Below are positions 4,740 through 42,958 of a DNA stretch of 64,000 nucleotides, one piece after another. This stretch comes from Spartobacteria bacterium. Its GTDB lineage: Bacteria > Verrucomicrobiota > Verrucomicrobiia > Chthoniobacterales > UBA10450. Numbering within the stretch: position 1 is the first letter of the stretch; each line of letters starts with the position of its first letter. The stretch lies in assembly GCA_003167555.1 (NCBI GenBank), contig PMSN01000011.1, forward strand, positions 248,001 to 312,000. Direction: 5' to 3'. The notes under the pieces were generated by a model. That model ran no database searches. It was not told the origin of the DNA and saw only the letters and a list, made by a program, of their open reading frames with translations. Position numbers and translations under genes: made by a program.

Positions 4740-4793
4740 TCGCTCCCGATTACAAACCTCCGTGGAAGTTGAGACAAGATTCTTCGGCTGGCG

Positions 4794-6320
4794 TTAGGAT
4801 TTGCCGCCAAATTTCGACAGCATCCGCTGGAAACGTGCGTCGTTGCGGAGCGAATCCCAGATCGGATCGAGCCGCAGCTCGTGAATCGTAACGCCGGACG
4901 GTGTCTGTAACGACCGATCGAGCAGCGCGAGCGCGGTATCCATGTCGCCACACATCATGCTGATGCGGGCGCGGCTGATGACCAGGATCGGGCCGTCGAA
5001 CGCGTCCTTCGCTTCCGGCAGCAATTCCACCGCGCGTTTTCCTTCCGCGACCGCTTCGTCGCAGCGGCCGAGTCCCGCATAAATCAAACCGAGCAACGCG
5101 TGACGCGGCCCGTCGTCCGGACTTTCCCGCACCGCGAAAAACGCCGGCATCGTTCGGCCGGCCGCGGCGCGCGACGGCGAATTCGTTCAGAGCCCGGTCG
5201 TAATCCCGATCCACATAATAATTGACGTAACCGAGCGCGAGATGGGATTCGGGCAGATCGGGCTGAAGCCGGAGCGCTTCATTCGCCGCCGTCCGCGCTT
5301 TCTGGGCGCGGGCAGCGATCGGTTCGATGGCGTAATAACTCCAGCTCTGCAAATGCGACAGACGCGCGTGCGCCAGTGCGAAAGAAGGATCGAGTTGAAC
5401 CGCCTTCTCGTAGAGCGCCTCGACCCGCGCCAGGTCATCGTGATGACGATCCGGCCGGTTGAAAATTTCTTTCGCCTCGAGGTAAACAAGATAGGACTCG
5501 CCGTTTTCCGTCGGCTTCTTCTCGATCCGCTGTTGTTCGTCGGGCGACAGTGTTGCCTTCAGCGCCGAAGCAATTTCCTGTGCCAGCTCGCTCTGGATCG
5601 CGAACACGTCGGTCAATTCGCGATCGTAAACCTGCGCCCACAAATGCCGGTCGTTCGACGCATCGATCAGCTGGACATTGATGCGAACGCGTTTGCCGTC
5701 GCGCCGGACACTCGCCTCCAGGATCGTGGCCACGTTCAGGGCCTTTCCGATTTCGCGCAGGTTGTGCGTTTGCCCGCGATACGGCATCACGGATGTGCGC
5801 GAGATCACTTTGAGGTCGCTGATCCTGGCGAGGTTTGTCAGTACGTCGTCCTGGATGCCGTCGGCGAAGTAGGCGTTCTCCTTATCGACGCTGAAGTTGT
5901 CGAAAGGCAGGACCGCGATCGATTTCTCCAGCTTGCGCGCGGAAGCGCGGGGAATGAGAAAGTAGCCGGCGGCCATCGCGGTGAGCAACCCGAACGCCGC
6001 GAGCGCGAAGATATTTTTTCGCCCCGCGGCAAACGCGGGCGGACAATCAGCCGGAACGGTTTCGGGCGTTGCTGTGATCCCGGCTTCGCTGACATCGAAG
6101 GCCCAGCGAGAATGAGCGCGATCGGAAATCCGGCGAGAACGAGGACGATGACAAGACGCGCCGTCCAAAGCGGAAGCGTCAGCGCCGGAAAAACGGTGAC
6201 GGCGAATTGAATGATCAACCAGCCGACCACGCCGTAGCCGGCGGCGGCGCGATACACCTTGCGGCGCCGCAACTCGCAAAAAAATCCGTAAAGCCGAGAG
6301 GATTGAAATGAATTTGCCAA
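4794..6320 (-). pseudogene. Decayed paralogue of the adjacent TolB-like/TPR membrane protein
   Basis: Read from TTG 6320, the start (FFCELRRRKVYRAAAGYGVV) matches the intact neighbour. At about 6106 the frame breaks: LILA must be followed by WAFDVSEAG in the next frame, consistent with one missing base. The second frame gives the TolB-like domain (IAVLPFDNFSVDKENAYFAD) and the first TPRs down to about 5160. There the match jumps into a third frame, which resumes only near the neighbour's C-terminus (RAVELLPEAKDAFDGP). Compared with the 664-residue neighbour, roughly 150 codons of TPR are missing. Two frame breaks plus an internal deletion argue for decay, although one break could be a sequencing error. 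Confidence 0.75.
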
Positions 6321-6345
6321 GTATGGCCCGCTTTTTAATCGAGCA

Positions 6346-7281
6346 TCACTTTACACCGGTAGCAAAAACTGTCTGAAAATGCGGGCTCTGTTTTTCCCGC
6401 GAGACGACCGTGACCTCGATGTTCTTGAAGCCGTTCGCCTCGAGAAATTGATGGAGCTGCACTTCGCTGAAGCCGAGCCAATGGTCGGCGTAAAGCTCAC
6501 GCGCGCGCTCGAAGCGGTGGCTGAGCAAATCGAGGACCACGATCCGCCCGCCTTTGCGCAATATCCGGTAAGCGCTCGCGATCGCCCGCTCCGGATGAAT
6601 GGCGTGATGGAGCGCCTGGCTCAGGATCGCCAGATCGATCGTGCCTTTTGCGATCGGCGGATCTTCGATGTCGCCGAGGCGATACTCGAGATTCGCGAAG
6701 CCGTGTCGCTTCGCGAGCTTCGATCCGAACTCGACCATCTTCGGCGAATTATCGACCGCGATGACTTTGCGCGCGGTCTTGGCCAGAAGCTGCGCGAGCG
6801 TTCCTTCGCCGGCGCCGAGATCGGCCACGGTTAACGCCGGCAACAAACTGATGACGGTGTGCGCGAGCGCTTGCCAGGAACGGCCCGGCACGTAGCTGCG
6901 GCCGAATTTCCCCGCCAGCTCGTCGAAATATTCTCGCGCTTTGTCGCGGCGCTTGCGTAGCGCGAGTTGCAGCGCGGTGCGGTCGCGCGCCGTTTCAGGC
7001 ATTTCGCGGGCGAGCACGCGGGTCAGTTCGTTCACTTTCGCGCGAGCCGGATTCCGCTCCTTTTTCTCTGTCAGGCCGTAGTAAACATTTTTCCCCGCGC
7101 GGCGATCTTCCACCACGCCGGCGCGTTTCAATTGCGCGAGATGACTCGAAATGCGCGATTGCCCCATTCCGAGAATTTCCTGCAGCTCCGCCACGGAAAG
7201 CTCCTCCTCTTCCAGCAAAAGGAGCAACCGGAGCCGGGTCGGATCGGCGAGCAGGCGCAGAAAATTAATGGTTGACGGCAT
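6346..7281 (-). CDS. ArsR-family regulator fused to a SAM-dependent methyltransferase domain
   Basis: 311 residues. Residues 1-70 are a winged helix of ArsR type, with the recognition region MGQSRISSHLAQLKRAG at about 39-55. From about 115 on there is a class I methyltransferase domain with the SAM-binding motif VADLGAGEGT at 152-161. A strong ribosome-binding sequence (GGAGGTG) precedes ATG 7281. The gene is divergent from metK-ahcY with under 100 bp between the starts. SahR-type ArsR regulators are known to control SAM-cycle genes in other bacteria in response to S-adenosylhomocysteine. From fusion and position I infer that the methyltransferase-like domain senses SAM or SAH and the protein represses metK-ahcY. 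It could instead be an ordinary methyltransferase with an N-terminal DNA-binding domain. Confidence 0.8.
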   Translation of the reverse strand: MPSTINFLRLLADPTRLRLLLLLEEEELSVAELQEILGMGQSRISSHLAQLKRAGVVEDRRAGKNVYYGLTEKKERNPARAKVNELTRVLAREMPETARDRTALQLALRKRRDKAREYFDELAGKFGRSYVPGRSWQALAHTVISLLPALTVADLGAGEGTLAQLLAKTARKVIAVDNSPKMVEFGSKLAKRHGFANLEYRLGDIEDPPIAKGTIDLAILSQALHHAIHPERAIASAYRILRKGGRIVVLDLLSHRFERARELYADHWLGFSEVQLHQFLEANGFKNIEVTVVSREKQSPHFQTVFATGVK

Positions 7282-7282
7282 T

Positions 7283-7322
7283 TTGCACCTCCACGATATA
7301 TCGACGTATCATGATTGGTCAA
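7283..7322. promoter_or_regulatory. Candidate divergent promoter/operator between the ArsR-methyltransferase gene and metK
   Basis: A perfect 10-bp palindrome, CGATATATCG, lies at 7294-7303. On the plus strand it sits in the 18-bp spacer between a plausible -35 (TTGCAC, 7283-7288) and -10 (TATCAT, 7307-7312) directed at metK. On the minus strand TTGACC (7322-7317) could be a -35, with its -10 falling inside the palindrome. This is where a repressor site would be expected, and the divergent gene encodes an ArsR-type regulator. The promoter boxes are by-eye matches only. Confidence 0.4.
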
Positions 7323-7377
7323 TATGATCAGCCATGATGCTTTCGTTTTCCAACTTCAACTCTTAACCGCTTCGCCC

Positions 7378-8577
7378 ATGCTCCGCCGTTTCATTTTTGC
7401 TTCAGAATCCGTTGGCGAAGGTCATCCGGATAAAGTTTGTGACACCATCTCAGACGCCGTCCTCGACGCCTGTCTCCGGCAGGATCGCAAAAGCCGCGTG
7501 GCCTGCGAGACCTACGCCAAAAGCAACGTCGTCATCGTCGGCGGCGAGATCACGATTCCGAATTTGCCGAAGGGAAAACACCTCGAAGACGTCATCCCGA
7601 TTAACCAGATCGTGCGCGAGACCGTGCGCGACATCGGCTACGTCCACGACGACGACGTGTTTCATGCGAAAAAGATTTTCGTCAACACCGTCATCACCGA
7701 TCAATCGCACGACATTTCGCAAGGCGTCGATGCGAAGAAGGCGAAGGGCAAAGAGGGCTCCGAGCAAGGTGCAGGCGACCAGGGTCTCATGTTCGGTTTC
7801 GCCTGCGACGACACACCGGAATTGATGCCGGCGCCGATCATGTTTGCGCATCGGCTCGGCCGCGAGCTGACGCGCATCCGCAAGAGCGGCAGAGCGGAGT
7901 GGCTCCGGCCCGACGCGAAATCGCAGGTCTCCGTCATTTACGAAAACGGCAAGCCGGTCGGTATTTCCAACGTCGTCATCTCGACGCAGCACACCGAAGA
8001 AGTCACCCACGAGGAGATCGAAAAATTCTGCATCGAAAAAATCATCCGCAAAGTGCTGCCGAAATCGATGGTCAACGGGGCCACCCAATTTCTCATTAAT
8101 CCGACCGGGCGTTTCGTCATCGGAGGACCGCAAGGCGACACCGGTCTGACCGGACGCAAGATTATCGTCGACAGTTATGGCGGCTGGGGCCGGCACGGCG
8201 GTGGCGCCTTCTCCGGAAAAGATCCGAGCAAAGTCGATCGCAGCGCCGCTTACATGGGACGCTGGGTGGCGAAGAATGTCGTCGCGTCCGGGCTCGCAAC
8301 GCGGTGCGAAATTCAATTCGCCTACGCCATCGGCTATCCCGATCCCGTCAGCATGAACATCAACACGTTCGGCACGAACACCGTTCCGGAAGAAGCGATC
8401 GAGCGCGCGGTCAACCGCACGTTCTCTTTCAAACCGGCCGAGATCATTCAGCAACTCGACCTGCTTCGCCCGATTTACAGCAAGACCACGAACTACGGCC
8501 ACTTCGGCAAAGACGATCCCGATATTACCTGGGAGAAGACCGACAAAGCTGCCGCTTTAAAAAAAGCGGCTCGTTAA
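7378..8577 (+). CDS. metK: S-adenosylmethionine synthetase
   Basis: About 399 residues, normal for MetK. It converts methionine and ATP to S-adenosylmethionine in the cytoplasm. The start at ATG 7378 gives the usual opening, [16 protein letters not shown], with the GEGHPDK motif at residues 13-19. Further in are [26 protein letters not shown] and GGGAFSGKD, the ATP/phosphate-binding motifs. A longer in-frame extension to 7315 adds residues without family resemblance and runs into the promoter region. ahcY follows after 14 bases, so the two probably form one transcript that makes SAM and recycles its by-product. Confidence 0.97.
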
Positions 8578-8591
8578 CTAGAAGCAATTTT

Positions 8592-10025
8592 ATGAGCACC
8601 CAAACCACGACAAAAACCAAAGCCAATGATTACAAAGTCCGCGACATCACCCTCGCGGATTGGGGACGCAAAGAAATTTCGATCGCGGAAAAGGAGATGC
8701 CAGGGCTGATGGCAATCCGCGAGAAGTTCGCAGTAAGCAAGCCGCTCGCCGGCGTGCGTGTGACGGGTTCGTTGCACATGACGATCCAGACGGCGGTGTT
8801 GATCGAGACGCTGGTTGCGCTGGGCGCCCACGTTCGTTGGGCCAGCTGCAATATTTTCTCAACGCAGGATCACGCCGCCGCGGCGATCGCGAAAGCGGGC
8901 GTGCCGGTCTTCGCGTGGAAGGGTGAAAGCCTCGAGGAATATTGGTGGTGCACCAACCAGGCGATTTCGTTCCCGGACGGCAAAGGTCCGCAGCTGGTCG
9001 TCGATGACGGCGGCGACGTGACCCTCTTCATTCACAAGGGCTACGAGCTGGAAGAAGGCGGGGCCTGGGCGAAATCGGCTTCCGCGAACAAGGAAGAACA
9101 GGTCATCAAAGATCTGCTGCTCGAAGTGCAGCGCGAAAATCCTTATCGCTGGCACGAGCTGGTGAAGGAATGGCGCGGCGTCTCGGAAGAGACCACCACC
9201 GGCGTCCATCGCTTGTACAAGATGCAGCAGCAAAACCAGCTTCTCGTTCCGGCGATCAACGTGAACGATTCCGTCACGAAATCGAAGTTTGATAACTTAT
9301 ATGGCTGCCGCCATTCACTGGTCGACGGACTGAACCGCGCGCTCGATGTCATGATCGCCGGCAAAGTCGCAGTCATCTGCGGCTACGGCGACGTGGGCAA
9401 AGGATGTGCGCAGTCGTTGCGCGGACAGGGTGCGCGTGTCGTTATCACCGAGATCGATCCGATCAACGCGCTCCAGGCCGCGATGGAAGGCTACGAAGTA
9501 ACCGCCATCGAAGACACGCTCGGCCGCGGCGATATTTACATTACTACCACCGGCAACGTGGATGTTATTACGCTGGAACACATGTCGCGCATGAAGGACC
9601 AGGCCGTCGTCGCTAACATCGGTCACTTCGACAATGAGATTCAGGTCGAGCCCTTGAACCAGCGCAAGGACATCAAGCGCACGAATATCAAGCCGCAGGT
9701 GGACAAGTATACCTTCCCGGATGGGCACGAAATCTTCATGCTGGCGGAAGGCCGGCTGGTGAACCTTGGTTGCGCCACGGGCCATCCCAGCTTCGTCATG
9801 TCCAATTCCTTTTCGAATCAGGTCCTGGCGCAGCTCGACCTGTGGAAGAACAAGGACACTTACAAGGTTGGTGTCTACGTCTTGTCGAAACAACTCGATG
9901 AAGAAGTAGCCCGCCTGCACCTGCAAAAAATCGGCGTGAAGCTGACGAAGCTGACCGACAGGCAGGCTGAATACCTCGGCGTGCCGATTGAAGGTCCTTA
10001 CAAGTCAGAGCACTACCGCTACTAG
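8592..10025 (+). CDS. ahcY: Adenosylhomocysteinase (S-adenosylhomocysteine hydrolase)
   Basis: 477 residues from ATG 8592. The enzyme splits S-adenosylhomocysteine to adenosine and homocysteine with bound NAD, relieving product inhibition of methyltransferases. Visible signatures are the substrate-binding CTNQA region near residue 120, [13 protein letters not shown], and the NAD loop [15 protein letters not shown] (GYGDVGKG at about 254-261). The C-terminus KSEHYRY matches the family. Its position directly behind metK fits a SAM-cycle operon. The open frame extends upstream into metK, but the homology and the ATG agree on 8592. Confidence 0.97.
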
Positions 10026-10056
10026 AAGCAACCACCGCTTACCTGGGCGCGTTCGG

Positions 10057-10073
10057 ACGGCCTACAGGGCCGT
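10057..10073. other. Short stem-loop downstream of ahcY
   Basis: ACGGCC and GGCCGT face each other across a 5-base loop in the roughly 100-bp gap between the convergent ahcY and TIR genes. There is no U-run after it, so a terminator role is only possible. The flanking GGCTACAG recalls the ends of other palindromic elements in the window. Confidence 0.3.
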
Positions 10074-10124
10074 GGCTACAGCGTTTGGCATTTATGCGAT
10101 GGTTAACCGTCAATTACGAGACCC

Positions 10125-11642
10125 TTATTTCCGGGGCCGCGAGAAGAAGACCTTAAAGACACGGTTATCCGGCGGTGTGTTTTGCATCGTCCCTTCCCAC
10201 CGGAGGTCGCTGGCGGATTCATCGCGTGTGAGATTAAGATGAGCAGTCAGGCGGTCCTGAGTGTATTCGTCGAGTAGTAGCTTGCCCTTTGGATGACGGC
10301 CTTGAAGGCGGTAGGTAACGCCTTTTTGAATGTAGTCGCCGGTGACGTGCTCAGGCCCTCCAAACTTTAGATGAAAGATGGCATCGCCGGCTCCTATTTT
10401 ACCGGAGTAAGTGTATTCACCAGTCGCTTCATTGCTTTCCTCCTGGTTGCTGGTTATCGGCGGGACGGAGGGGGATGCAGTGGTATTAGCGAAAGGTCGC
10501 TCGAATGAGACATGAAAGGTGCGGTTGTCGGGCGGTGTGTTACGCATCGTTCCGTCCCAGTGGACCATGTTGGTGGTGTTGGAGCGGGTTAGATCGAGGT
10601 GAGCGGTAACTTTGTCCCCCGTGTATTCGTCGAGCGATAACTTGTTTTTTGGATGGTGAGTACCTTCAAGGCGATACGTGGAACCTCCACGGTTATAGTT
10701 GCCGATAACGCGCTCGCCGTTTTCAAACTTCAAGTGAAACACTGCGTCGCTGAAACCGATCTTTCCTGTGAAGGTATATTCCTTGCCGGTGACGTTTACT
10801 TCTTCTTCAACAGGAGCGGGTGAAGGCGAGGGCGATGAAGTAGAAGCTGGCGGTGAAGTTAGAGCCGGTGTTTCTACCGGCTTCGTGCTAGTATAGGTGG
10901 AAGTTACCGCGATCGATGCCGTGGGCGATGGTGTTGGAGCCGAGCTGGGTTGAAGCCTCCTTCTTCTGGTCTGAGTTTGTGCGGCCAAGTCGTTGGCTGG
11001 TGTTGCGGCAGGCTCTTGTCTGCGGGCTGGCTCGGTGGTCTTGCTCGAAGGATGGATGAGGAAATACCAGGCACCTATTCCAGCGAGTAGAGCTGCCAGG
11101 GTTAACGCTCCCATCATCACCGGACTCTTGCGGCTGCTCGGAGTTGGCGTCGGGGCTGCAGGTAGCACTGGAGGTGGAGGAAGGTGTGCGTCCACGACCT
11201 TGTGGATCCCGGCGATCAGCCGGTCCGTGTGGTGATGAAAGTCGATGCCGGTATCGAGCGCGAGGCCATTGCGAAAGGCGAGTCCTTCCAGCTCTAGAGG
11301 AAGACTCTTGGCGTCAGGCATCGGCGTGTTGTTGATAAGAACGGGAATGATGGGAATGCCCGTCTCCAGAGCGCTCGCTATTTCGAGTCTGACAAAATCC
11401 GACGGGTCGTCGATCCGGCGGCCGGACTTATCGTTCGCTCCCGCCCAGTCTGGCCCGATGATGGCCACGATAACCTTCGCGCGCCGCAGAGTGTGTTTGA
11501 TGTGTTCGCGAAAATCGACGCCGTAAGGAATGGAATCAAAATCCATGAAGACGGTATCTTTCCCGAACTCCGCCTGTAACCGATCGTAAAGACGCCCCGC
11601 CACCGGGTTGCTGTCCTGTCGGCGATAGGAAATGGCGATCAT
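10125..11642 (-). CDS. Membrane-anchored TIR-domain protein with duplicated C-terminal domain
   Basis: 505 residues. Residues 1-153 form a TIR domain: it opens with ISYRRQDS and has a box-2-like VFMDFDSIPYG and a conserved acidic helix DFVRLEIASALE with Glu87 at the position of the NADase glutamate. A single hydrophobic span follows at about 175-197, then a Pro/Ser/Thr-rich linker at 200-285. Two copies of a domain of about 95 residues come last (about 288-382 and 409-503), each containing F/Y-x-G-K-I-G, A-x-F-H-L-K-F and N-T-P-P-D-N-R. Bacterial TIR domains can cleave NAD or make cyclic ADP-ribose signals. I infer a cytoplasmic TIR, one membrane helix and a duplicated extracytoplasmic sensor or binding module. 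The repeat domain is not one I recognise, and no known defence genes flank it. Confidence 0.75.
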   Translation of the reverse strand: MIAISYRRQDSNPVAGRLYDRLQAEFGKDTVFMDFDSIPYGVDFREHIKHTLRRAKVIVAIIGPDWAGANDKSGRRIDDPSDFVRLEIASALETGIPIIPVLINNTPMPDAKSLPLELEGLAFRNGLALDTGIDFHHHTDRLIAGIHKVVDAHLPPPPVLPAAPTPTPSSRKSPVMMGALTLAALLAGIGAWYFLIHPSSKTTEPARRQEPAATPANDLAAQTQTRRRRLQPSSAPTPSPTASIAVTSTYTSTKPVETPALTSPPASTSSPSPSPAPVEEEVNVTGKEYTFTGKIGFSDAVFHLKFENGERVIGNYNRGGSTYRLEGTHHPKNKLSLDEYTGDKVTAHLDLTRSNTTNMVHWDGTMRNTPPDNRTFHVSFERPFANTTASPSVPPITSNQEESNEATGEYTYSGKIGAGDAIFHLKFGGPEHVTGDYIQKGVTYRLQGRHPKGKLLLDEYTQDRLTAHLNLTRDESASDLRWEGTMQNTPPDNRVFKVFFSRPRK

Positions 11643-33686: not shown

Positions 33687-34247
33687 TGGACGCGCCGGTC
33701 GCGCAATCGTGGTTCCTCAGAAAAAATGAGGATGGCCACATTTTCGGGCCGCTCTCCTTCGAGCAACTCGCGCGCTGGGCATCCTCGGCGCAAGTCGCCC
33801 CGCAGGACGTCCTCTCGTCCGATCAGGTGACGTGGATCAAGGCGCCGATGCTGCAGGAGCTCGGCATGGATTGGCTCGTCGAACTGACGAGCGAACGCTA
33901 TTACGGGCCGACCACATTGGGCGCGGTCCAGGAGTTCATGCGCCTCGGCGAGATCAACGAGCAAACTTTTCTGATCAATTCCTGCGAACGGCGCGCGCCG
34001 CCAGATCGGAGAGATGTCGTTGATTCTCCAGACGCAGCCCGCGCCCGCAGATGCTGTGGCGCCGGCGGAGGAAGCTCCTTTCGCCGAACCCGCGGCAACC
34101 GGCATGTCCATCGACGTGCAAGATCGAATCCGCGATCTCGAACAAAGTTTACTCGAAGAACGCCGCGCGCTCCGCGAAGCCGAAGAGCGATATCGCGCCT
34201 TGGAATTGAAATACCAGGAGCTGGCGCGACAGCTCTCGACTCGTTAG
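33686..34247 (+). CDS. GYF_2-domain protein with C-terminal coiled coil (frameshifted)
   Basis: The first frame gives WFLRKNEDGHIFGPLSFEQLARW and WLVELTSERYYGPTTLGAVQEF, two GYF_2-like modules that in other proteins mediate peptide binding. After FLINSCERRA the sense is lost, but a shifted frame resumes RQIGEMSLILQTQPAPAD and runs to 34247 with a charged coiled coil (DRIRDLEQSLLEERRALREAEERY). One extra base in the GCGCGCGCCGCC run near 33990-34000 explains this. It could be a real lesion or a sequencing error. Without the shift the first frame would end at 34300. The last four bases overlap the convergent ABC transporter gene. Confidence 0.6.
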
Positions 34248-36058
34248 GCCGGGACGTCGAGAGTCTCTTCTGGAGTTGGAAATTGGACGTTGGGCGTTAA
34301 GCGTTGGACGTTTTCCCCATCTTCTTCCTGGGCCGGCTTCTCCAAAAAACTCTGCTCCCAGAGCCGCGCGTATTTTCCTCCCAACTCCAGGAGCGACGCA
34401 TGCGTTCCCCGCTCGATGATGCGGCCTCGCTCCAGCACGAGAATCTGATCGGCCCGAAGAATCGTGGAAAGACGGTGCGCGATCACAAAACACGTCCGGT
34501 GCGACATCAGATGTTCGAGCGCTTCCTGGATCAAGCGCTCCGTCGTGGTATCCACGCTCGCCGTCGCTTCATCGAGAATCAAAATCGGCGGATCTTTCAG
34601 GAGCGCGCGCGCGATCGAGAGCCGCTGCTTCTCGCCCACGCTCAATTTGACTCCGCGCTCGCCCACCACGCTGCCCAAGCCTTTCGGCAATAGATCGATG
34701 AAGCCCCGCGCATTCGCCGCTTCCGCCGCGCGCAGAACTTCGTCGTCGGTCGCATCCGGCCGTCCCATGAGAAGATTTTCGCGGATTGATCCGTTGAAGA
34801 GAAAACTCTCTTGCGTCACCACGCCGATCATCTCCCGCAGCCGGCGCGTGCCGAAGTCGCGGATCGGCCTTCCGTCGATCAAGATTTCGCCCGTCTCGTA
34901 CTCGTAGAAGCGCGTCAACAAATTCACGAGAGTCGATTTGCCCGCGCCGGTCGTGCCGACGAGCGCGATCGTCTCGCCGGGCCGGGCGTGAAAACTGATG
35001 TGCTGCAGCGCTGGCGCGCCTTCCTTTCCATAGTTGAAACCGACATCGTTGAACTCGACATCGCCTTTTACCCGCACAGTTTCTTTCGCAACATCCCATC
35101 CCGGCTCGATCGGTTCGTCGATGATTTCGAAGACGCGCTCACCCGAGGCCCGTCCGGCCTGTACCAGTTGATTGAGTTGATGAAGTTTGTTGATCGGCTC
35201 ATACAAAAATCCGGTGAGCATGAGGAACGCGATCAGGTCGCCCACTTGCATGCCGCCGCTCAGCACGACGCGCGCGCCGAACCACACCGTGAAAACAATC
35301 CCGAGCGAGCCGATGAGAATCATCGATGGGTGATACAGCGCCCAGACGCGCATCACCACGAGCGTCGCGTGGCGAAGCTGGTCGCTGACCGAATTGAAGC
35401 GGCTGTGTTGTTCCCGCTCGCGCACGAAGCTCTTGATCTGCCGGATTCCCGCCAGGTTATCGTGCAGGAGCGAGTTCATCGCCGACGCCGCGCGCCTTTG
35501 GAGGCGATAACGCCGATGCGCTGTGAGGGTGTACCAGAGCGCGCCGCCGGCCAGCAAGGGCAACGGCGCCAATCCGACAAACGAAAGCGAAACACTGAAG
35601 TAAAACATCATCCCGAGCACGACCACGAGCTGCAGCACGGCCATGACGCCCTGTTCGATCCCATCGATCAGCATCCGCTCGACCGAGGTCACGTCCTCGA
35701 GGATGCGCGTCATCAAATCGCCCGTCGCGCGATTATCGAACCAGCGCAACGGCAGCATCTGGATGTGCGAATAAAGATCGCTTCGCAGATCGAAGATGAC
35801 TCTTTGCTCGAACGTGTTGTTCAGAATGATCCGGAGCGAATTCAGCCCGTTCTGGATCACGAACGCCACCGCCGCGAACAGGACCAGCGGAGTCAGCCGC
35901 TCCGGGCGGTGCTGATACAAGACTTCATCGACGACGCGCTTGGTCACAATCGGGAACACCATCACCATCAAGGTGCTGAGCACCGCGCAACCGAGCGTCC
36001 CCGCCGCCATCCAGGGATACCGCCTCAAATAAGCAAAAACGCGCCAAACAGTTCTCAT
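34244..36058 (-). CDS. ABC exporter, transmembrane and ATPase domains fused (MsbA/LmrA type)
   Basis: 604 residues from ATG 36058. Six membrane segments (about 15-300) precede a full nucleotide-binding domain: Walker A GTTGAGKST, Q-loop VVTQESF, signature LSVGEKQRLSIARALL (a slight change from LSGGQ), Walker B ILILDEATASVD and switch IAHRLST. It works as a homodimer exporting lipids, drugs or peptides. MsbA-like lipid flipping is possible, but the substrate is open. The last 25 residues come from a heptanucleotide repeat array and are probably dispensable. It is divergent from the peroxidase gene at 36228. Confidence 0.9.
   Translation of the reverse strand: MRTVWRVFAYLRRYPWMAAGTLGCAVLSTLMVMVFPIVTKRVVDEVLYQHRPERLTPLVLFAAVAFVIQNGLNSLRIILNNTFEQRVIFDLRSDLYSHIQMLPLRWFDNRATGDLMTRILEDVTSVERMLIDGIEQGVMAVLQLVVVLGMMFYFSVSLSFVGLAPLPLLAGGALWYTLTAHRRYRLQRRAASAMNSLLHDNLAGIRQIKSFVREREQHSRFNSVSDQLRHATLVVMRVWALYHPSMILIGSLGIVFTVWFGARVVLSGGMQVGDLIAFLMLTGFLYEPINKLHQLNQLVQAGRASGERVFEIIDEPIEPGWDVAKETVRVKGDVEFNDVGFNYGKEGAPALQHISFHARPGETIALVGTTGAGKSTLVNLLTRFYEYETGEILIDGRPIRDFGTRRLREMIGVVTQESFLFNGSIRENLLMGRPDATDDEVLRAAEAANARGFIDLLPKGLGSVVGERGVKLSVGEKQRLSIARALLKDPPILILDEATASVDTTTERLIQEALEHLMSHRTCFVIAHRLSTILRADQILVLERGRIIERGTHASLLELGGKYARLWEQSFLEKPAQEEDGENVQRLTPNVQFPTPEETLDVPA
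34271..34311 (-). repeat. Heptanucleotide repeat array at the 3' end of the ABC exporter gene
   Basis: On the minus strand, units related to ACGTCCA (ACGTCCA, ACGCTTA, ACGCCCA, ACGTCCA, ATTTCCA) run in tandem with period 7. They encode NVQRLTPNVQFPTPEE near the C-terminus. They are more degenerate than the array at 17839-17876 but clearly related. Confidence 0.7.
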
Positions 36059-36227
36059 GCTGTGGTCACACTGTAGAACATCGAATGTCTTCGCGCATGA
36101 TCGAATCGAATAACAACTCTTTAATTTAAGGAGTAGATTTGGAAGCGGGGCAACGGTAGGCGGCGCAACCGCCATCGTGGTTCAAATGAACTCGACAAGA
36201 CCCGCGGGGTTTGGTCACCTGTGATTC

Positions 36228-37595
36228 ATGCGCCTAACGGCACCTCCCAGAGTGACCTATTGCCGGTTGTTTCCGGCTATCGGCACGCCATTCACTTATG
36301 ACGCCATGGAAAGATTGGGGCTGTCCATGCGGAGCAACACAAATCGAATGCCGGATAGACCGGGGCCGCCACCGCCCCCAGCCGCAGCTTATACTTACTT
36401 CGGCCAATTCATTTTTCATGACCTAACGCGCGACGACACGCCGCTTTCGGAAAGCCCGATGCCGGACGCTGGCGAAATAGTTAATCACCGAACGCCATTC
36501 TTAGATCTGGATTCATTATACGGGGGTGGTCCCTTCTCACTTGATTCCACCTTATATCAAGACAGGGATAACGTTTGTTTTAAGCTCGGAGCAGCCAATA
36601 CAAGCGGGCGGCCGTTTGATGTGCCGATGGATACGCTTCGTCGCCGTCCCTTGATAGCCGATAGCCGCAATAACGAGAATATCGTGATACGGCAGATCCA
36701 TGCGTTGTTCCTTGTGCTTCATAACATGGCGGTGAAGGAACTCCGAGGCACAGTTCCCGAGGAAGAGTTATTCGACAAGGCCAGACAGCGAATCCGATGG
36801 CAGTATCAATGGCTCGTCCGGTATGACTACTTGCGCCGCATCTGCAGGAAAGATGTTTATGCGGACGTTATTGAGCAAGGAAACACTCGAATCGTTTGGG
36901 GAGATTGTTTCGCAATCCCTGTCGAGTTTTCGCACGCCGCTGCGCGTTTCGGGCACAGCATGGTGCGTCCCAAATACAATCTTAATCGAGGCAAACTAAA
37001 CTTTCCGGTGGTCGATCTTTTTGCCGAAGCGCACCGAGGCGAAGCCCTTCATCCCGATCTCGCCGTTGATTGGGGCAAGTTTACGCGAGATCCCGCAAAC
37101 TCGATTGATACAACAATCGTGGACGCTCTATTTAATTTATCCGACGAAAGTATCCATCCTTTCGTTGCCCTTTTTACGGACTTTGAAACGAAGGCTCTTC
37201 CGGTCCGAACGCTTTATCGGGCTATCGCGATGAAAATTTGTACCGGGGAAATGGCGCGCGATACCTTGGACCCATGCGGGATTCTTTGCGAGCCGATTGG
37301 TTACGACCCATTTAGAGATCTTCGGGATTTAGGCCTGATCGGTCAAACCCCGCTCTGGTATTACCTCTTACTCGAAGCTGAAGTGTGCGAAAAAGGCGCC
37401 AGGTTGGGCCCGTTCGGCAGTCGCCTGATCGCAGAAGTGATTGACGGCGCGCTTCGTAACGATCCTCATTCGATTCTGCGTGAGATGGAACGTGATCCGG
37501 CGTGGCGTCCTGCCACCTGGAAAGTCGGTAGCATTCAAGTGCCCATCGATAATTTTCAAGAGTTGACCCGCGTTGTCGGGCTTTTGCCAGATTAG
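36228..37595 (+). CDS. Animal-type haem peroxidase
   Basis: 455 residues, without a clear signal peptide. Family motifs are in order: TYFGQFIFHDLT with the distal histidine, NHRTPFLDLDSLYGGGP, a D-x-R-x-N-E-N segment (IADSRNNENIVI), RQIHALFLVLHNMAVKEL, and EFSHAAARFGHSMVRPKYN with the proximal histidine. These enzymes bind haem and oxidise halides or organic substrates with hydrogen peroxide; bacterial members are few and their substrates are mostly unknown. The gene is AT-richer than its neighbours (28 of 60 GC bases in the sample line 36481-36540). The LanM-like gene begins 2 nt after its stop, which strongly suggests one transcript and a joint role. Confidence 0.85.
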   Translation: MRLTAPPRVTYCRLFPAIGTPFTYDAMERLGLSMRSNTNRMPDRPGPPPPPAAAYTYFGQFIFHDLTRDDTPLSESPMPDAGEIVNHRTPFLDLDSLYGGGPFSLDSTLYQDRDNVCFKLGAANTSGRPFDVPMDTLRRRPLIADSRNNENIVIRQIHALFLVLHNMAVKELRGTVPEEELFDKARQRIRWQYQWLVRYDYLRRICRKDVYADVIEQGNTRIVWGDCFAIPVEFSHAAARFGHSMVRPKYNLNRGKLNFPVVDLFAEAHRGEALHPDLAVDWGKFTRDPANSIDTTIVDALFNLSDESIHPFVALFTDFETKALPVRTLYRAIAMKICTGEMARDTLDPCGILCEPIGYDPFRDLRDLGLIGQTPLWYYLLLEAEVCEKGARLGPFGSRLIAEVIDGALRNDPHSILREMERDPAWRPATWKVGSIQVPIDNFQELTRVVGLLPD

Positions 37596-37597
37596 AG

Positions 37598-39004
37598 TTG
37601 ATCCAGTCCGAGAAAACCTTGCGTCGGATCCGCGAGTACTTGCTCGACGATAATCGTCATCCATCGGCGCGGCTAACTCGGTCCGAGAACCTGGCTGCGC
37701 CTGTCGTTCGTTTCGCTTGGGAGGAGCTTCGGCAGGCGAAGCGGCTTGAATTGCTTTCGGGCAACGCAGCTTCAGCGCTGCGTGATTCCCTTCGAAGTCG
37801 TCTGGCATTGATAGCACACGAAGTAACAACGTCGGAGCTGAAGCTCCCCCATTCCGGCAATTGCACAAAACGAAAGGACCGGAACCGTCCAATCCAAGAC
37901 CCTTTCTTCGGAGCGTTTGCGAAAGACACCTTGCAGCTGCTCGAAAATTATCCTGGCCTGGCACGCTTGTGGAGCGTGCAGGTCGAATGGTGGCAACGAT
38001 TCGTTACCGATTTTGTCAATCACGCTCGCAGTTTTGTTAGAAGGAAAAACAACACGTCAGCAACTGTCGCAGCGATCGTTGCCGATCTGTCCGATCCGCA
38101 TTGCGAAGGCCGAACCGTAATGCGGGTCCGGTTTGTCCCGGGGGGCGATTGGTACTATAAACCGAGGACAGGGTGTCAGGAAGTTGCGTGGTTTAAACTG
38201 TTGCGGCGGCTAAACAACGAAGGGTTCTCCTTGCCGTTTCTCATCGTGAGGACGGAGTCAGGCAACCAACATTCTTGGATGGAGGCGGTGCGCGCTAGGA
38301 GTTGCGTGAATCGAACGGAAGAGCGCCGTTTATGGTATAGAAGCGGGGCCTTAAGCTATCTTATTCATTTATTACGAGGGGTCGATTTTCATGAGGCCAA
38401 TCTTATTGTTAGCGGTGACCAACCGGTATTTGTAGACGTCGAAACGCTACTGCATCCAAACACCTCTTTGCCGACCGCTTTTCGTGCTGAGGATACTTCT
38501 ATTCTCCGCACGGGTCTTTTTCCCGTCTCGATCCCAACGGAGGGTTCGCATTACGGATTTGCGAAGTTGCGACGCTCCAGCCGAGGTGCCGCTGGCCTTT
38601 ACTCGGAAAGAACGATGCCGTCCGAACTTGTAGATGAGCTCATAACCGGATTTGAGGCCATGCACGCGTTTGTAACGGCGAAACCGCACCGCAAGCGATA
38701 CATTCGGCGCCTGGCTGTTGGTCTGGCGAAGCTTCCGGGTCGAATTATCCATCGTCCGACGAGACAATATGTGTCGATGCTTGCAGCGTCCCTGGCGCCG
38801 ACACTCATGCGCGACGAGTTCCAAAGGACGGTCTTCCTTTTGACAGCCTGCACAGAGGATGCCGGTTCGCCCGAGCAGACTTTAACCGAGTACCAGGCAC
38901 TAGAGAACGCGGATATACCCGTATTCGTGTCTTTACGTCGCAGAGTTCAGGTGAACTTCCATAGAATGAAAATTCGACCCTCGGTACATTCGGCAGCGAT
39001 GTAA
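37598..39004 (+). CDS. Stand-alone LanM-type lanthipeptide dehydratase domain (DUF4135), cyclase absent
   Basis: 468 residues from TTG 37598. Kinase-like catalytic motifs of LanM dehydratases are present: FVPGGDWYYKPR (KPR at 188-190), GVDFHEANLIVSG (Asp263, His265, Asn268), VFVDVETLLHPN (Asp280, Glu282) and RIIHRPTRQYVSML (about 382-394), then NADIPVF. LanM enzymes phosphorylate Ser/Thr of a precursor peptide and eliminate phosphate to make dehydro residues. Typical LanM proteins are about 1000 residues with a C-terminal zinc cyclase. This one ends soon after the IPVF motif, and the next 36 bases lead to a convergent gene, so no cyclase follows. It may be a reduced dehydratase, a kinase-only enzyme or a truncation. 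It is tightly coupled to the peroxidase gene. Confidence 0.75.
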   Translation: MIQSEKTLRRIREYLLDDNRHPSARLTRSENLAAPVVRFAWEELRQAKRLELLSGNAASALRDSLRSRLALIAHEVTTSELKLPHSGNCTKRKDRNRPIQDPFFGAFAKDTLQLLENYPGLARLWSVQVEWWQRFVTDFVNHARSFVRRKNNTSATVAAIVADLSDPHCEGRTVMRVRFVPGGDWYYKPRTGCQEVAWFKLLRRLNNEGFSLPFLIVRTESGNQHSWMEAVRARSCVNRTEERRLWYRSGALSYLIHLLRGVDFHEANLIVSGDQPVFVDVETLLHPNTSLPTAFRAEDTSILRTGLFPVSIPTEGSHYGFAKLRRSSRGAAGLYSERTMPSELVDELITGFEAMHAFVTAKPHRKRYIRRLAVGLAKLPGRIIHRPTRQYVSMLAASLAPTLMRDEFQRTVFLLTACTEDAGSPEQTLTEYQALENADIPVFVSLRRRVQVNFHRMKIRPSVHSAAM

Positions 39005-39039
39005 CGGTATGACACCCTCGTCTCCTCGATTTCGAACGT

Positions 39040-39414
39040 CTAAGTTTTCGGCCGCGCAGATTCAAGCTTGAGCGTTTTTGACTGTAAGCTTGTCCAATCA
39101 ACCCAAGTGCAACGCCAAACATCGGTTACGTCGACCGCGCCTTGTAGGGTCTGGGGTAAGAGCACTACACCCAGCTCTTCGTCTCTTTCTCGGGTAGTGC
39201 TCTGCTCATAGACACGTAATTCCATATGGGCCGGGATTTTTGTTGGATCTGTCTGGGAGCCTTCTATCTCGAACTCACCAAGACGTGCGAAGAGCTGTTT
39301 TGCAAAACAGCGGTCTCTGCCAGCTCTAAGACGGTCATCGTTATTTGCGAAGACGTGCTTCACAAAAGCTTCTACCGCGCTCTTACGCGCTTCTATATCT
39401 GTCCAGTCTTTCAT
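39040..39414 (-). CDS. Candidate RiPP precursor with nitrile-hydratase-like (NHLP) leader
   Basis: 124 residues from ATG 39414, with AAGGA placed 7-8 nt ahead. The segment FAKQLFARLGEFEIEG, then PTKIPAHMELRVYEQ and ELGVVLLPQT resembles the NHLP/nitrile hydratase alpha pattern (IP-x2-V-E-x-R-V then a short V-L-P end). After LLPQT a 35-residue tail (LQGAVDVTDVWRCTWVDW, then TSLQSKTLK...) contains one Cys and several Thr/Ser, as a modifiable core could. The gene is convergent with the LanM-like gene, 36 bp apart, and lies 17 bp behind the kinase gene on the same strand. The leader resemblance is by eye. A small NHLP-fold protein unrelated to RiPPs is the main alternative. Confidence 0.5.
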   Translation of the reverse strand: MKDWTDIEARKSAVEAFVKHVFANNDDRLRAGRDRCFAKQLFARLGEFEIEGSQTDPTKIPAHMELRVYEQSTTRERDEELGVVLLPQTLQGAVDVTDVWRCTWVDWTSLQSKTLKLESARPKT

Positions 39415-39431: not shown

Positions 39432-42179
39432 TTATTTAAGCCCTTGTTCGGCGGGCGTTGACCGTCGAAGCGACACCACTCGTGTGGCCATCGAATCGTA
39501 AATCTCTTTGTAGCGCGGATGCTCGCGCACCGAATCAAAGCGCGGATCAACGGCCAGCGACCGATAATCGATCCAGCCGGCCTGGGTTGCTTGCGCTAAA
39601 GAGGAGAGAGCCGGTTCTAGTGCGCCGAGCGACGCTTCAATGGCGGCCACTCGATATAGAATTTCCGGGTGCTGCGGTTTGGATTGGAGTGATCTCTTTT
39701 CTTCTTCGAGGGCTTGCTGCAGAATCTCCCTCCCACCTTGCTTATCGCCGACTTCCAATCGCATCCAACCAAGAGCGGATTGGTAGGAGACACCGCCGTA
39801 GAACCCACCGCCGCCTTTCGGATCCTTCGCCACAAGTTCCTCGTAACGCGCTTGCGCAGCAGTAAAATTCCGCGAGAAGAAGTCGACCTGGGCAACCATT
39901 TCCTGGGCGTAAGTGAAGTCGCGGTGTCGCATCCAGTTTTCTGACGCAATCTTTCTCGCCGCAGCGAAATCCTTTCGCAATAGAGCTAGTCGGGAAAGGC
40001 CCATCCATCCTTCTGGTCGCTCGGGAAAAAGGTCCTCCGCCCGGCGATAGGAGGCAGCTGCGGAATCGTCATCAGCCAAATCAGCCCAACAGTCACCTAT
40101 CGTGAACTCGTTAAAGCCAGGACGACTCGCTCTGCGGGCGGCCAATCGGCACCAAGGTATTGCCTGATCCGGGCGGCCAAGTGTTTTTAAGATATTAGCG
40201 GCCCAGACTGTCGGTCGCATTTTGCTATTTGCCATCTCGTGGCCGACGAATACCTCTTCGAGGGCCTCTTTGAACCGGGCCTGCTCTGACAAAACTAACG
40301 ACAATGCGTTATGTGAATCCGCCAAGTCTGGATTCAGTCCGATTGCCTTCCGCGCCGATATTTCGGCTGCAGAAAGATACTTGGGGTCATCAGCTGTATG
40401 ACCACGACCAGCTTGGACTATGGAGAGGTAGCTATAAGCCAACGCGGAGTTTGGTTGAGCAGCAATCGCCTTGTTGAAGCATTCGATTGCGCGGTCCAGA
40501 TCGGGCAGCGTACGACGTTCCTGTACAGCCCGCCCGGCGATGAGAAGTTCGCGCGCGTACTCATCCCGCCAACCAGGGTCATTTTCAAAACCTTCTACGG
40601 CAGAAAATTTATTGTCATTCAGAATCGAGTAAACATCGGCGGCGATTAGCGTTGCGACCTTCTGGGCGGAACCCCCGGAAGCATCAAGCTCGATGATTCG
40701 ACGATAGAGCACGCCGCGATTGGTTGTGTCTTCGAGGCGAAGAGAAAATCGCAGCTTCCCATCACGGATACGTTTCGTTCCGATAAGTGTCGTGCGTGCC
40801 CTAGCCATTTCTGCATCGTACCGTGCAGCGGTTGGCGGGACAGTTTCACCGGTTATCGCGGTCACTAATGCTGGCCCACGCTCAGACAGTTCCTTCTGCA
40901 ACGCTTGGGCGATTGCGACCGACAAGATGGAATCAGTTTGCGCCGTGTCGAGATCAAGAGTTGGCTCAACCGAGACAGAGTGCTGGGCAAGCGCTTCTTC
41001 GAGCACTCTTACTTGCAGATGCCTGCTCTGAGTCTGCCACACAAGAGCAGCGAGGCCCAGTGCGAGACATGCCGCGAAACTGCCAGCAAGCATCTGATTG
41101 CGCTTCGACCAGCGCCAGATGCGAACGGGCGGCGACACTGGCCGAGCAATGATGGGGCGACCTTCGAGCCAACGCTCTAAGTCTTCGGCGAGATCGTGGG
41201 CGGAGCGGTAGCGGGCAGACGGTTCGCGTTCGAGACACCGGGCGCAGATGGTTTCGAGATCGCGGTCGGCGACTTTCGAGAGGGAACGCAGTTTCGGCGC
41301 GGGGTTCTCGGCGGCTTGGCGGATAACGGAGAGCGCATGCGAGCCGAGAAACGGCGGCCGGCCGGCGAGCAGATCGAAGAGGATGGCGCCGAGACTGTAG
41401 ATATCGGCGGTAGGTTTGAGTTGCGCGGCGGGACCGCTGGCTTGCTCGGGCGCGATGTAGCCGGGCGTGCCGAAGATCGTGAGCGTGCGGGTGAGGTCGC
41501 TGGTGGTGTCTAGCCATTTGGCAAGACCGAAATCGCTCACAAGCGGTTCGCCGCGGCCGTCGAGCAGGATGTTTCCGGGCTTGAGATCGCGGTGGAGAAT
41601 TCCTTTGCCGTGCGCGTATTGCACGGCGCGCGCCACCTTGGCGACGAGCGCCACGCAGTGACGCGGCTCGTCCCGCAACGCGCGACTGGCATCCTGCAAA
41701 CTTCCGCCGGGCGCGAATTTCATGCTGAAGAATGGGAGCCCGTCTTCGCTCTCGCTCACTTCGTAGATAGGCAGAATGTTCGGATGATCGAGGCTCGCGG
41801 CGGCTTGCGCTTCGCGCCGGAAACGCGCGAGCGTTTCCTGCGAGTCGGCGTGATAACTCAGCACCCGCTTCACGGCAACGATGCGGCGGGAATGACGCTG
41901 CCGGGCGCGGTAGATCACGCCCATTCCGCCGCGTCCGATTTCCTCGAGGATCTCGTAGTTCCCGAGGCGCCAGTTCTTGTCCGCGATTGTTATTTCGGAG
42001 AGAACGCTGCCAAGTGTTTCGCCGGCGCACGCATCGTCGGGCTCAAGGCCGGTTTGGAGGAGGCAACCCACGCAAAGACCGCCGCTAATGTGCGAGGACG
42101 ATTCGCAATGCGGACACTGTGCGGGATTCGCGATCACGCTTGCGATGGAATCGGAAAATCCTGGGGAGAAATGTTTCAT
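39432..42179 (-). CDS. Ser/Thr protein kinase with TolB-like and TPR C-terminus
   Basis: 915 residues from ATG 42179, which overlaps the sigma factor stop (ATGA). A short Cys-rich zinc-ribbon-like N-terminus (PAQCPHCESSSHISGGLCVGC) precedes a Hanks-type kinase at about 75-340: GRGGMGVIYRAR, catalytic HRDLKPGN, DFGLAKW, GTPGYIAPEQ. One membrane helix follows at about 367-385. The rest is a TolB/FlgO-like stretch and many TPRs. The longer frame up to 42575 lies inside the sigma gene and was rejected. The TPR half is AT-richer than the kinase half, a mosaic look. Sigma-kinase pairing is known in Planctomycetes and Verrucomicrobia, where the kinase is thought to control its sigma factor. Confidence 0.88.
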   Translation of the reverse strand: MKHFSPGFSDSIASVIANPAQCPHCESSSHISGGLCVGCLLQTGLEPDDACAGETLGSVLSEITIADKNWRLGNYEILEEIGRGGMGVIYRARQRHSRRIVAVKRVLSYHADSQETLARFRREAQAAASLDHPNILPIYEVSESEDGLPFFSMKFAPGGSLQDASRALRDEPRHCVALVAKVARAVQYAHGKGILHRDLKPGNILLDGRGEPLVSDFGLAKWLDTTSDLTRTLTIFGTPGYIAPEQASGPAAQLKPTADIYSLGAILFDLLAGRPPFLGSHALSVIRQAAENPAPKLRSLSKVADRDLETICARCLEREPSARYRSAHDLAEDLERWLEGRPIIARPVSPPVRIWRWSKRNQMLAGSFAACLALGLAALVWQTQSRHLQVRVLEEALAQHSVSVEPTLDLDTAQTDSILSVAIAQALQKELSERGPALVTAITGETVPPTAARYDAEMARARTTLIGTKRIRDGKLRFSLRLEDTTNRGVLYRRIIELDASGGSAQKVATLIAADVYSILNDNKFSAVEGFENDPGWRDEYARELLIAGRAVQERRTLPDLDRAIECFNKAIAAQPNSALAYSYLSIVQAGRGHTADDPKYLSAAEISARKAIGLNPDLADSHNALSLVLSEQARFKEALEEVFVGHEMANSKMRPTVWAANILKTLGRPDQAIPWCRLAARRASRPGFNEFTIGDCWADLADDDSAAASYRRAEDLFPERPEGWMGLSRLALLRKDFAAARKIASENWMRHRDFTYAQEMVAQVDFFSRNFTAAQARYEELVAKDPKGGGGFYGGVSYQSALGWMRLEVGDKQGGREILQQALEEEKRSLQSKPQHPEILYRVAAIEASLGALEPALSSLAQATQAGWIDYRSLAVDPRFDSVREHPRYKEIYDSMATRVVSLRRSTPAEQGLK

Positions 42180-42958
42180 GGATTTTCGCTCGAGCCGGCG
42201 GCAAGGACTCCACACAGATGCCGGATTTCTTCGTCGACCTCGGCTGGATCGGCCACCGTTTCGGCGACCTCCTCGCGGAGCAGGCTGCGATAACGTTGCC
42301 GCAGGCGATGGACCAGCCGTTTCACGGTCGCCTCGGGCACTCCCAGTGTGATCGAGAGCGCCGAATAGGAGACGTCTTCGCGCTCGGCGGCCAGGCAACT
42401 GCGCAAAGTTTCGAAAGCGCGCAGGCGTCCCTGGCTTTCGCATTCTTCCCGCAGCCGGCGCAACGCTTGCTCGACCACGGTCGCGGCCCAGCGTAAATCG
42501 AAGAGGCGCTCGGCCGGCCACTGTTCCAAAGCGTGCGCCGAGACTGTGAGTTGCGACGGCGCTTCCGCCATCCATTCATCCCACGAGACAAACTCCGCGC
42601 CGCCGCCGCGTTTGCGCGCATGGCGTTTCTCGAGGGCATCGTTCAGAAAATTCTGGAGCGATTTGAGGAGGAGCGATCGGAACCTGCCGCGGTTAGGATC
42701 GGCGTGCCGGAGCCAGTTACCTTCCAGCATCATAACAAAAAAATCCTGAGTGAGATCCTGCGCGTCTTCCACTGAGTGCCCGCGCCGGCAGACGAACGAA
42801 AAGATGGGGCGCCAGTAAAGCCGGCAGAGCTCGGCCAGGGCCGCGCGCGCCCGGGGATTCTCGCCGTCGCCGCCGGCGGAAGTGAGGATGAGACTCCACC
42901 GCGTCGTGGCGAAGTTGCGCGCTTCGCCGCCATTTTCCGCCGCGATTGGGGAATTCAC
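42176..42958 (-). CDS. ECF-type RNA polymerase sigma factor linked to a Ser/Thr kinase
   Basis: 260 residues from GTG 42958. Region 2 is at about 35-100 (LCRLYWRPIFSFVCRRGHSVEDAQDLTQDFF) and region 4 is near 195-225 (SYSALSITLGVPEATVKRLVHRLRQRYRSLLREEV, helix-turn-helix). The D-A-Q-D-L-T-Q-D-F-F core is typical of the kinase-associated ECF groups of Planctomycetes and Verrucomicrobia. It overlaps the kinase start, so they are translated together. No separate anti-sigma factor is seen. Confidence 0.88.
   Translation of the reverse strand: MNSPIAAENGGEARNFATTRWSLILTSAGGDGENPRARAALAELCRLYWRPIFSFVCRRGHSVEDAQDLTQDFFVMMLEGNWLRHADPNRGRFRSLLLKSLQNFLNDALEKRHARKRGGGAEFVSWDEWMAEAPSQLTVSAHALEQWPAERLFDLRWAATVVEQALRRLREECESQGRLRAFETLRSCLAAEREDVSYSALSITLGVPEATVKRLVHRLRQRYRSLLREEVAETVADPAEVDEEIRHLCGVLAAGSSENP

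Follow-up and report, generated by a model that had tools for sequence, protein, structure and literature searches.

A candidate proteusin-like gene module combining an animal-type haem peroxidase with a cyclase-free LanM dehydratase in Verrucomicrobiota

Several described systems for ribosomally synthesized and post-translationally modified peptides (RiPPs) place a LanM-type dehydratase domain (DUF4135) with a precursor peptide. In the proteusins, PoyF is a cyclase-free LanM dehydratase domain acting on a precursor with a nitrile hydratase-like leader peptide (NHLP) (PMC9505594). In phospeptin production, the cyclase-free LanM EmbM is found beside the precursor peptide EmbA (PMC9259500), and in the case of the dehydrazoles and carnazolamide, the DUF4135 dehydratase CcaM acts on an NHLP precursor together with a second kind of enzyme (PMC10676384). 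Here we describe a gene module in which a stand-alone LanM and a peptide with an NHLP-like leader are joined by an animal-type haem peroxidase. It lies in a 64,000-nt stretch of DNA (the window) from a Spartobacteria bacterium (Verrucomicrobiota, Chthoniobacterales, UBA10450; assembly GCA_003167555.1, contig PMSN01000011.1, positions 248,001–312,000).

The module departs from each of these systems. Compared with PoyF and the proteusins, it has no radical SAM epimerase, methyltransferase, protease or GG/VAGG leader end, and it has a conserved core of about eight residues, a haem peroxidase, and an operon with a kinase and a sigma factor. EmbM leaves phosphothreonine and EmbA contains no Cys, whereas both the elimination residues and a Cys are kept here. 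CcaM carries a fused class III-type cyclase and acts together with a YcaO enzyme, and no haem peroxidase is mentioned in that work. The C-terminal LANC_like cyclase by which class II lanthipeptide synthetases (LanM) are recognized is absent from the module LanM. Aromatic crosslinks in short ribosomal cores are also made by a P450 in the biarylitides (PMC8708641) and by a radical SAM enzyme in darobactin (PMC9055067), but the putative crosslinking enzyme here comes from a different superfamily. Neither a haem peroxidase serving as a RiPP enzyme nor a set of peroxidase, LanM and NHLP was found in the open-access literature searched. The module would represent the NHLP-leader kind of RiPP locus, with an oxidative haem peroxidase as its new element.

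We propose, with a probability of roughly 0.6, that this is a proteusin-like RiPP module in which the LanM would dehydrate the Thr or Ser next to a Cys and the peroxidase would couple two aromatic residues into a small C-terminal ring. A RiPP role as such is well supported by comparison among module copies.

Core residues and their companion enzymes

The module is defined by five genes: a sigma factor, a Ser/Thr kinase with TPR repeats and an NHLP-leader peptide in one direction, convergent with a peroxidase followed by a LanM. Among the 83 genomes of the family set, DUF4135 occurs in 15, as 17 copies; 16 of these stand alone, and the remaining one, in G042, is a canonical cyclase-bearing LanM. 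The same five-gene layout surrounds all 16 stand-alone copies (that of the window, a second in the same genome, and 14 more in the family), save those cut by a contig end. The initial annotation had proposed a trio of peroxidase, LanM and peptide, to be doubted if relatives did not keep the three together. The genes are where it placed them, the layout recurs in 15 other copies, and the trio is intact at 16 of 16 stand-alone DUF4135 genes. The trio does belong together, although the sigma factor and the kinase are also members.

All 16 peptides share a common leader and carry, at the C-terminus or close to it, the motif [WY]-x(1-2)-C-[TS]-[YW]-x-x-[WY] with an invariant Cys (family alignment A2). 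The window core stands in the context DVWRCTWVDW, and the 17 residues past W-R-C-T-W-V-D-W are not conserved. What had been described as a Cys/Thr/Ser tail is correct as to the C-T pair, but the conserved part is this aromatic and Cys-Thr motif rather than a generic tail.

A peptide-profile search of the order recovered seven module copies without LanM. Their cores are WIGTWVPY, FKGAWFPY, WVAAWPPY plus WIAAWSPY (two tandem units), WVATWPPY (L189), YMMCCYQAW, YFVW and FRCTWFPY. Two aromatics three apart (Ar-x-x-Ar, where Ar is an aromatic residue) are kept in all seven, while C-[TS] is lost in six (GT, GA, AA, AT, CC or nothing in its place) and the core Cys in five. C-[TS] is thus present in 16/16 cores with LanM against 1/7 without it (Fisher p 7e-5, a test that ignores descent). 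The converse situation is found in a sister family of the order, where LanM-only genes face NHLP-like peptides beside kinase- or sigma-like genes, with no peroxidase in the locus; the cores WSLCTDPTG, WSTLCTDYTTT and YCCTGGTQT contain Cys-Thr and no aromatic pair. This double dissociation, in which LanM-less copies lose C-[TS] and LanM-only copies lack the aromatic pair, is the main argument for assigning residues to enzymes. The comparison shows the C-[TS] pair to go with the LanM gene and Ar-x-x-Ar with the peroxidase gene, and the link between the three genes, first suggested from their adjacency, is strengthened by a peptide core that changes with the enzyme set. LanM presence changes four times on the peroxidase tree, which offers three supported independent pairs; C-[TS] follows LanM in two to three of them and never does the opposite.

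The seven closest peptides add a further pattern. Within the last 100 positions, none varies more than the two that separate the final Tyr from Trp, whereas the surrounding Y, C, Y, W and R are invariant. A variable pair framed in this way by invariant Y, C, Y and W is what would be expected if the reacting residues are fixed and the filling between them is free.

The two tandem units mentioned above are found at 6678–7406 of L188, where the peptide gene is duplicated within one 242-aa open reading frame (ORF). At each of the sister-family loci L195, L196, L154 and L150, a cyclase-free LanM faces a short peptide gene, with a kinase (and in L195 a sigma factor) and no peroxidase. The LanM and NHLP part may be the older form of the module.

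Some LanM-less copies appear to be exported. By signal assignments made by eye, L191 and L192 (=L076) combine a peroxidase bearing a twin-arginine-type signal with a precursor that has a signal peptide, and the precursor of L193, also a locus with no LanM, starts with a signal peptide as well. The L192 precursor contains two leader units. Because LanM needs ATP, it could not serve in maturation outside the cytosol, which fits its absence from these exported-looking copies. We see about an even chance that these are the first ribosomal peptides with aromatic crosslinks made by an animal-type haem peroxidase, in one version with a cytosolic cyclase-free LanM at Cys-Thr and in another as an exported (Tat/Sec) peroxidase-only system.

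The two enzymes and the leader

Membership of the peroxidase in the animal haem peroxidase superfamily is indicated by a PF03098 score above cut-off together with the distal His/Gln, the Arg and the proximal His. The haem residues Q60, H64 (distal), R147, H243 (proximal) and N253 are conserved in 15/15 aligned copies. The fold family and the distal and proximal haem residues are shared with lactoperoxidase, myeloperoxidase and peroxinectin; however, the copies that accompany a LanM have no signal peptide, are about 450–520 aa long, and vary at the position before the distal His, which is F in the window and F, G, V, A or D across the family, the distal Asp being present in 6/15 copies and missing in 9/15. 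In mammalian haem peroxidases this Asp esterifies the haem covalently, a trait of the mammalian branch and not of the whole superfamily. Some animal haem peroxidases couple tyrosines. Phylogenetically, all module peroxidases, LanM-less ones included, fall in one clade (support 100/99), which also holds the Verrucomicrobiota peroxidase L091 at a contig end.

The best match of the LanM to the 932-position LanM model spans only positions 2–301, and its TIGR03897 score is 211 bits against a cut-off of 304. The LANC_like cyclase domain is absent from all 16 stand-alone copies (468–589 aa), in which only DUF4135 was found. CylM and LicM2 were the only solved structures matched, over their dehydratase halves, and the AlphaFold2 model of the LanM likewise matches CylM 5dzt (E 1e-17) and LicM2 6st5. 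In CylM, phosphorylation depends on K274, D347, H349, N352 and D364, and elimination on D252, H254, R506 and T512 (PMC4550811). The window counterparts are K188, D263, H265, N268 and D280, and D166, H168, R382 and T388, respectively. All nine catalytic residues are present in the window copy and in 11/16 copies, the other five having one change each. These results bear out the initial annotation, which had read kinase-like LanM motifs without a cyclase. It had also allowed for decay of a full-length LanM, but no stand-alone copy has a cyclase, none at this site in sister strains is full-length, and the LanM end is immediately followed by the convergent peptide gene.

The elimination residues are lost in EmbM, the kinase-only LanM of phospeptin (PMC9505594, PMC9259500). 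Since they are kept here, dehydration is a better prediction than phosphorylation alone, and the LanM should dehydrate rather than only phosphorylate. Of the two activities suggested at the outset, dehydration or phosphorylation, the former is therefore favoured; a phosphorylation-only enzyme of the EmbM type is disfavoured by the retention of D166, H168, R382 and T388.

As a single sequence, the window peptide has no match in searches of Pfam and other protein-family models. The 16-member profile A2, however, has NHLP 9cjx as its best PDB match (E 0.0016), followed by 8tb1 (E 0.087), and nearly all remaining PDB matches are nitrile hydratase alpha chains (E 0.3–1.2). Alignment with hhalign gives 96.6% probability between A2 and other Verrucomicrobiota NHLPs (NHLPs with VAGG and f10 NHLPs), and single members in NCBIfam reach NHLP models below threshold (best 0.005, 6/16 members). 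The leader is thus homologous to nitrile hydratase at the profile level, as in proteusins, and the nitrile-hydratase-like leader claimed from the window sequence holds for the profile and not for that single sequence. No Gly-Gly/VAGG boundary between leader and core is found in the A2 alignment, a trait common in proteusins though not strictly defining. The predicted peptide structure consists of a confident helical leader (predicted local distance difference test, pLDDT, ~90 over residues 1–60) and a disordered core. Foldseek returned no match for this model, and VIA-align ranked only nitrile hydratases, with weak Z of 3.3 and 3.2.

Proposed maturation and competing explanations

The sigma–kinase–peptide operon would produce a precursor in which a folded NHLP leader precedes a short C-terminal core of the form Ar-x(1-2)-C-[TS]-Ar-x-x-Ar. 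The LanM would phosphorylate and then eliminate at Thr/Ser (−18 Da), leaving dehydrobutyrine or dehydroalanine (Dhb/Dha) beside the Cys, and the Cys may then add to this neighbour. With H2O2, the peroxidase would oxidise and couple two aromatics (Tyr-Trp or Trp-Trp, −2 Da), and the two variable residues would be enclosed in the resulting ring. Expression is probably under the control of the kinase/sigma pair. As the module encodes neither leader removal nor export, these steps would rely on host functions or not take place.

Several observations weigh against this proposal. An adjacent Cys-Dhb pair is an unusual lanthionine geometry and would give a seven-membered ring. A protease, a GG cleavage motif and a dedicated exporter are all absent from the module. 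One LanM-less copy, L087 (FRCTWFPY), retains C-T, although a LanM is present in the second module of its genome. The independent changes in LanM presence number only three to four, too few for significance after phylogenetic correction. The LanM-only comparison is small, with three readable cores, and no such peptide could be read at the LanM-only loci L150 and L153.

A RiPP with other chemistry is an unlikely alternative: the peroxidase could make a Cys–Trp/Tyr thioether or oxidise single residues, with the LanM preparing or phosphorylating the neighbouring Thr. Such a scheme would suit the adjacency of Cys, Thr and the aromatic pair in every core that has a LanM, and a precedent exists in the related cyclase-free EmbM, which halts at phosphorylation (PMC9259500, PMC9505594). 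Yet LanM-less copies retain the peroxidase and the aromatic pair while the core Cys is gone in 5/7, which ties the Cys to LanM, and the elimination residues absent in EmbM are kept. It is distinctly improbable, in our judgement, that the product stays on the NHLP scaffold as a small modified protein (e.g. a peptide-derived redox cofactor) sensed by the kinase/sigma pair. The lack of a protease, cleavage motif or conserved exporter would be explained in this way, and the peptide is under constraint similar to that on the peroxidase (ratio of nonsynonymous to synonymous substitution rates, dN/dS, 0.08–0.20) and lies close to and co-directional with the kinase in module copies. However, RiPP pathways often have their proteases encoded elsewhere, nothing points directly to a cofactor role, and the genome's two other sigma–kinase pairs adjoin large proteins, not such peptides.

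It is highly improbable that the peroxidase and the peptide make up an oxidative defence or a stress response, with the LanM acting elsewhere and the peptide not an enzyme substrate. Animal-type peroxidases often make oxidants, and the regulators suggest a response system, but the C-terminal motif changes along with the enzyme set, and the leader is of RiPP type. If LanM dehydration and peroxidase coupling are indeed the two steps, animal-type haem peroxidases would join P450s, radical SAM enzymes and multinuclear non-haem iron-dependent oxidative enzymes (MNIOs) as peptide crosslinkers. Bacteria would then offer a simple genetic system in which the target residues of each enzyme can be read from natural gene losses. 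A compact ring-forming pathway of two enzymes, possibly portable, would also become available, together with a clue to the use that uncultured soil Verrucomicrobiota make of such peptides.

Locus layout and distribution

Features of the module and its neighbour are given in Table 1. The LanM gene has a TTG start 2 nt past the peroxidase stop. The peptide gene is convergent with and adjacent to LanM, as first noted, with a measured separation from the LanM stop of 35 nt rather than 36 bp. The kinase-TPR gene runs in the same direction as the peptide gene and ends 17 nt before it; its 5′ start is uncertain within 42176–42575, as the ORF overlaps the sigma gene. A sigma homologue is found in the same place in module copies with enough contig. 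The guanine-plus-cytosine (GC) content is 0.52–0.55 across 36–41 kb, about 0.60 before and 0.62–0.64 just after. The lower GC assigned to the trio is therefore real, but the dip also takes in the 3′ half of the kinase gene and is not specific to the three genes.

Table 1. Positions of the module genes, core motif and neighbouring exporter in the window
Feature	Positions	Strand	Evidence
Animal-type haem peroxidase, 455 aa	36228..37595	+	PF03098 E 4e-16; 59 bits vs cut-off 25
Stand-alone LanM dehydratase domain (DUF4135), 468 aa, without cyclase	37598..39004	+	PF13575 E 1.5e-58
Precursor peptide, 124 aa, NHLP-like leader and short core	39040..39414	-	Family alignment, profile matches
Core motif W-R-C-T-W-V-D-W, peptide residues 100-107	39094..39117	-	Alignment and reading of sequence
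Ser/Thr protein kinase with TPR repeats, proposed regulator	39432..42575	-	Pfam; adjoins peptide in module copies with enough contig
Sigma-70-like factor, first gene of sigma-kinase-peptide unit, proposed regulator	42176..42958	-	Sigma70_r2 E 3e-4, under Pfam cut-off
MsbA-like ABC exporter, syntenic neighbour	34244..36175	-	Protein family matches

A second full module copy with identical gene order is found in the same genome (L009, G000:C3:60000-79000, at 3787–10708); its peptide, on contig C3, has 105 aa and ends DYQTCSYFFWRS. The genome has only one DUF4135 gene besides that of the window, and it adjoins a second peroxidase of the same kind. A third animal-type peroxidase of the genome (C23:63299-63664, L152) has no peptide, LanM or kinase near it. 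Beyond the modules, this sigma family has just two further members in the genome (L206, 7496–14877; L207, 5439–11130), both paired with kinases and lying beside large, apparently secreted proteins. The sigma–kinase pair looks like a reusable local regulator.

Several of the relatives harbouring the module are Spartobacteria/Chthoniobacterales bacteria known from metagenome-assembled genomes, mostly from soil or palsa judging by their names. Many copies, that of the window included, occupy one inherited chromosomal site across different genera (folB – module – ABC), the flanking genes being ones that we take, from reading their sequences, to be folB and DUF721-like. The ABC exporter flanks L037, L040 (decayed), L187, L192 and L087 and was not seen beside other copies; it tracks this site rather than the module and is probably not a component. 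The peroxidase, the LanM and the peptide all show purifying selection (dN/dS 0.08–0.39, where dS is unsaturated). The 16 conserved copies and their synteny rule out chance neighbours, and comparison shows the module to be inherited as a unit.

Of 80 peroxidase loci from GTDB genomes, those with a LanM or a module peptide within 8 kb all belong to Verrucomicrobiota. An even sample of the phylum yielded one proteusin-type LanM and one marginal match but no additional module, and in a sample of the class the peptide profile had no match outside the window's family. In another class of the phylum, L149 (G547:C6, 1085–8750) is a proteusin-type cluster with two NHLP-VAGG precursors and a 615-aa cyclase-free LanM. 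Within the same family as the window, L050 (G042:C54, 1147–4017) harbors a canonical full-length LanM (DUF4135 and LANC_like) adjoining an MsbA-like exporter. A further locus, L194 (6702–7549), is a decaying module copy with a split kinase gene, a peroxidase fragment and a truncated peptide.

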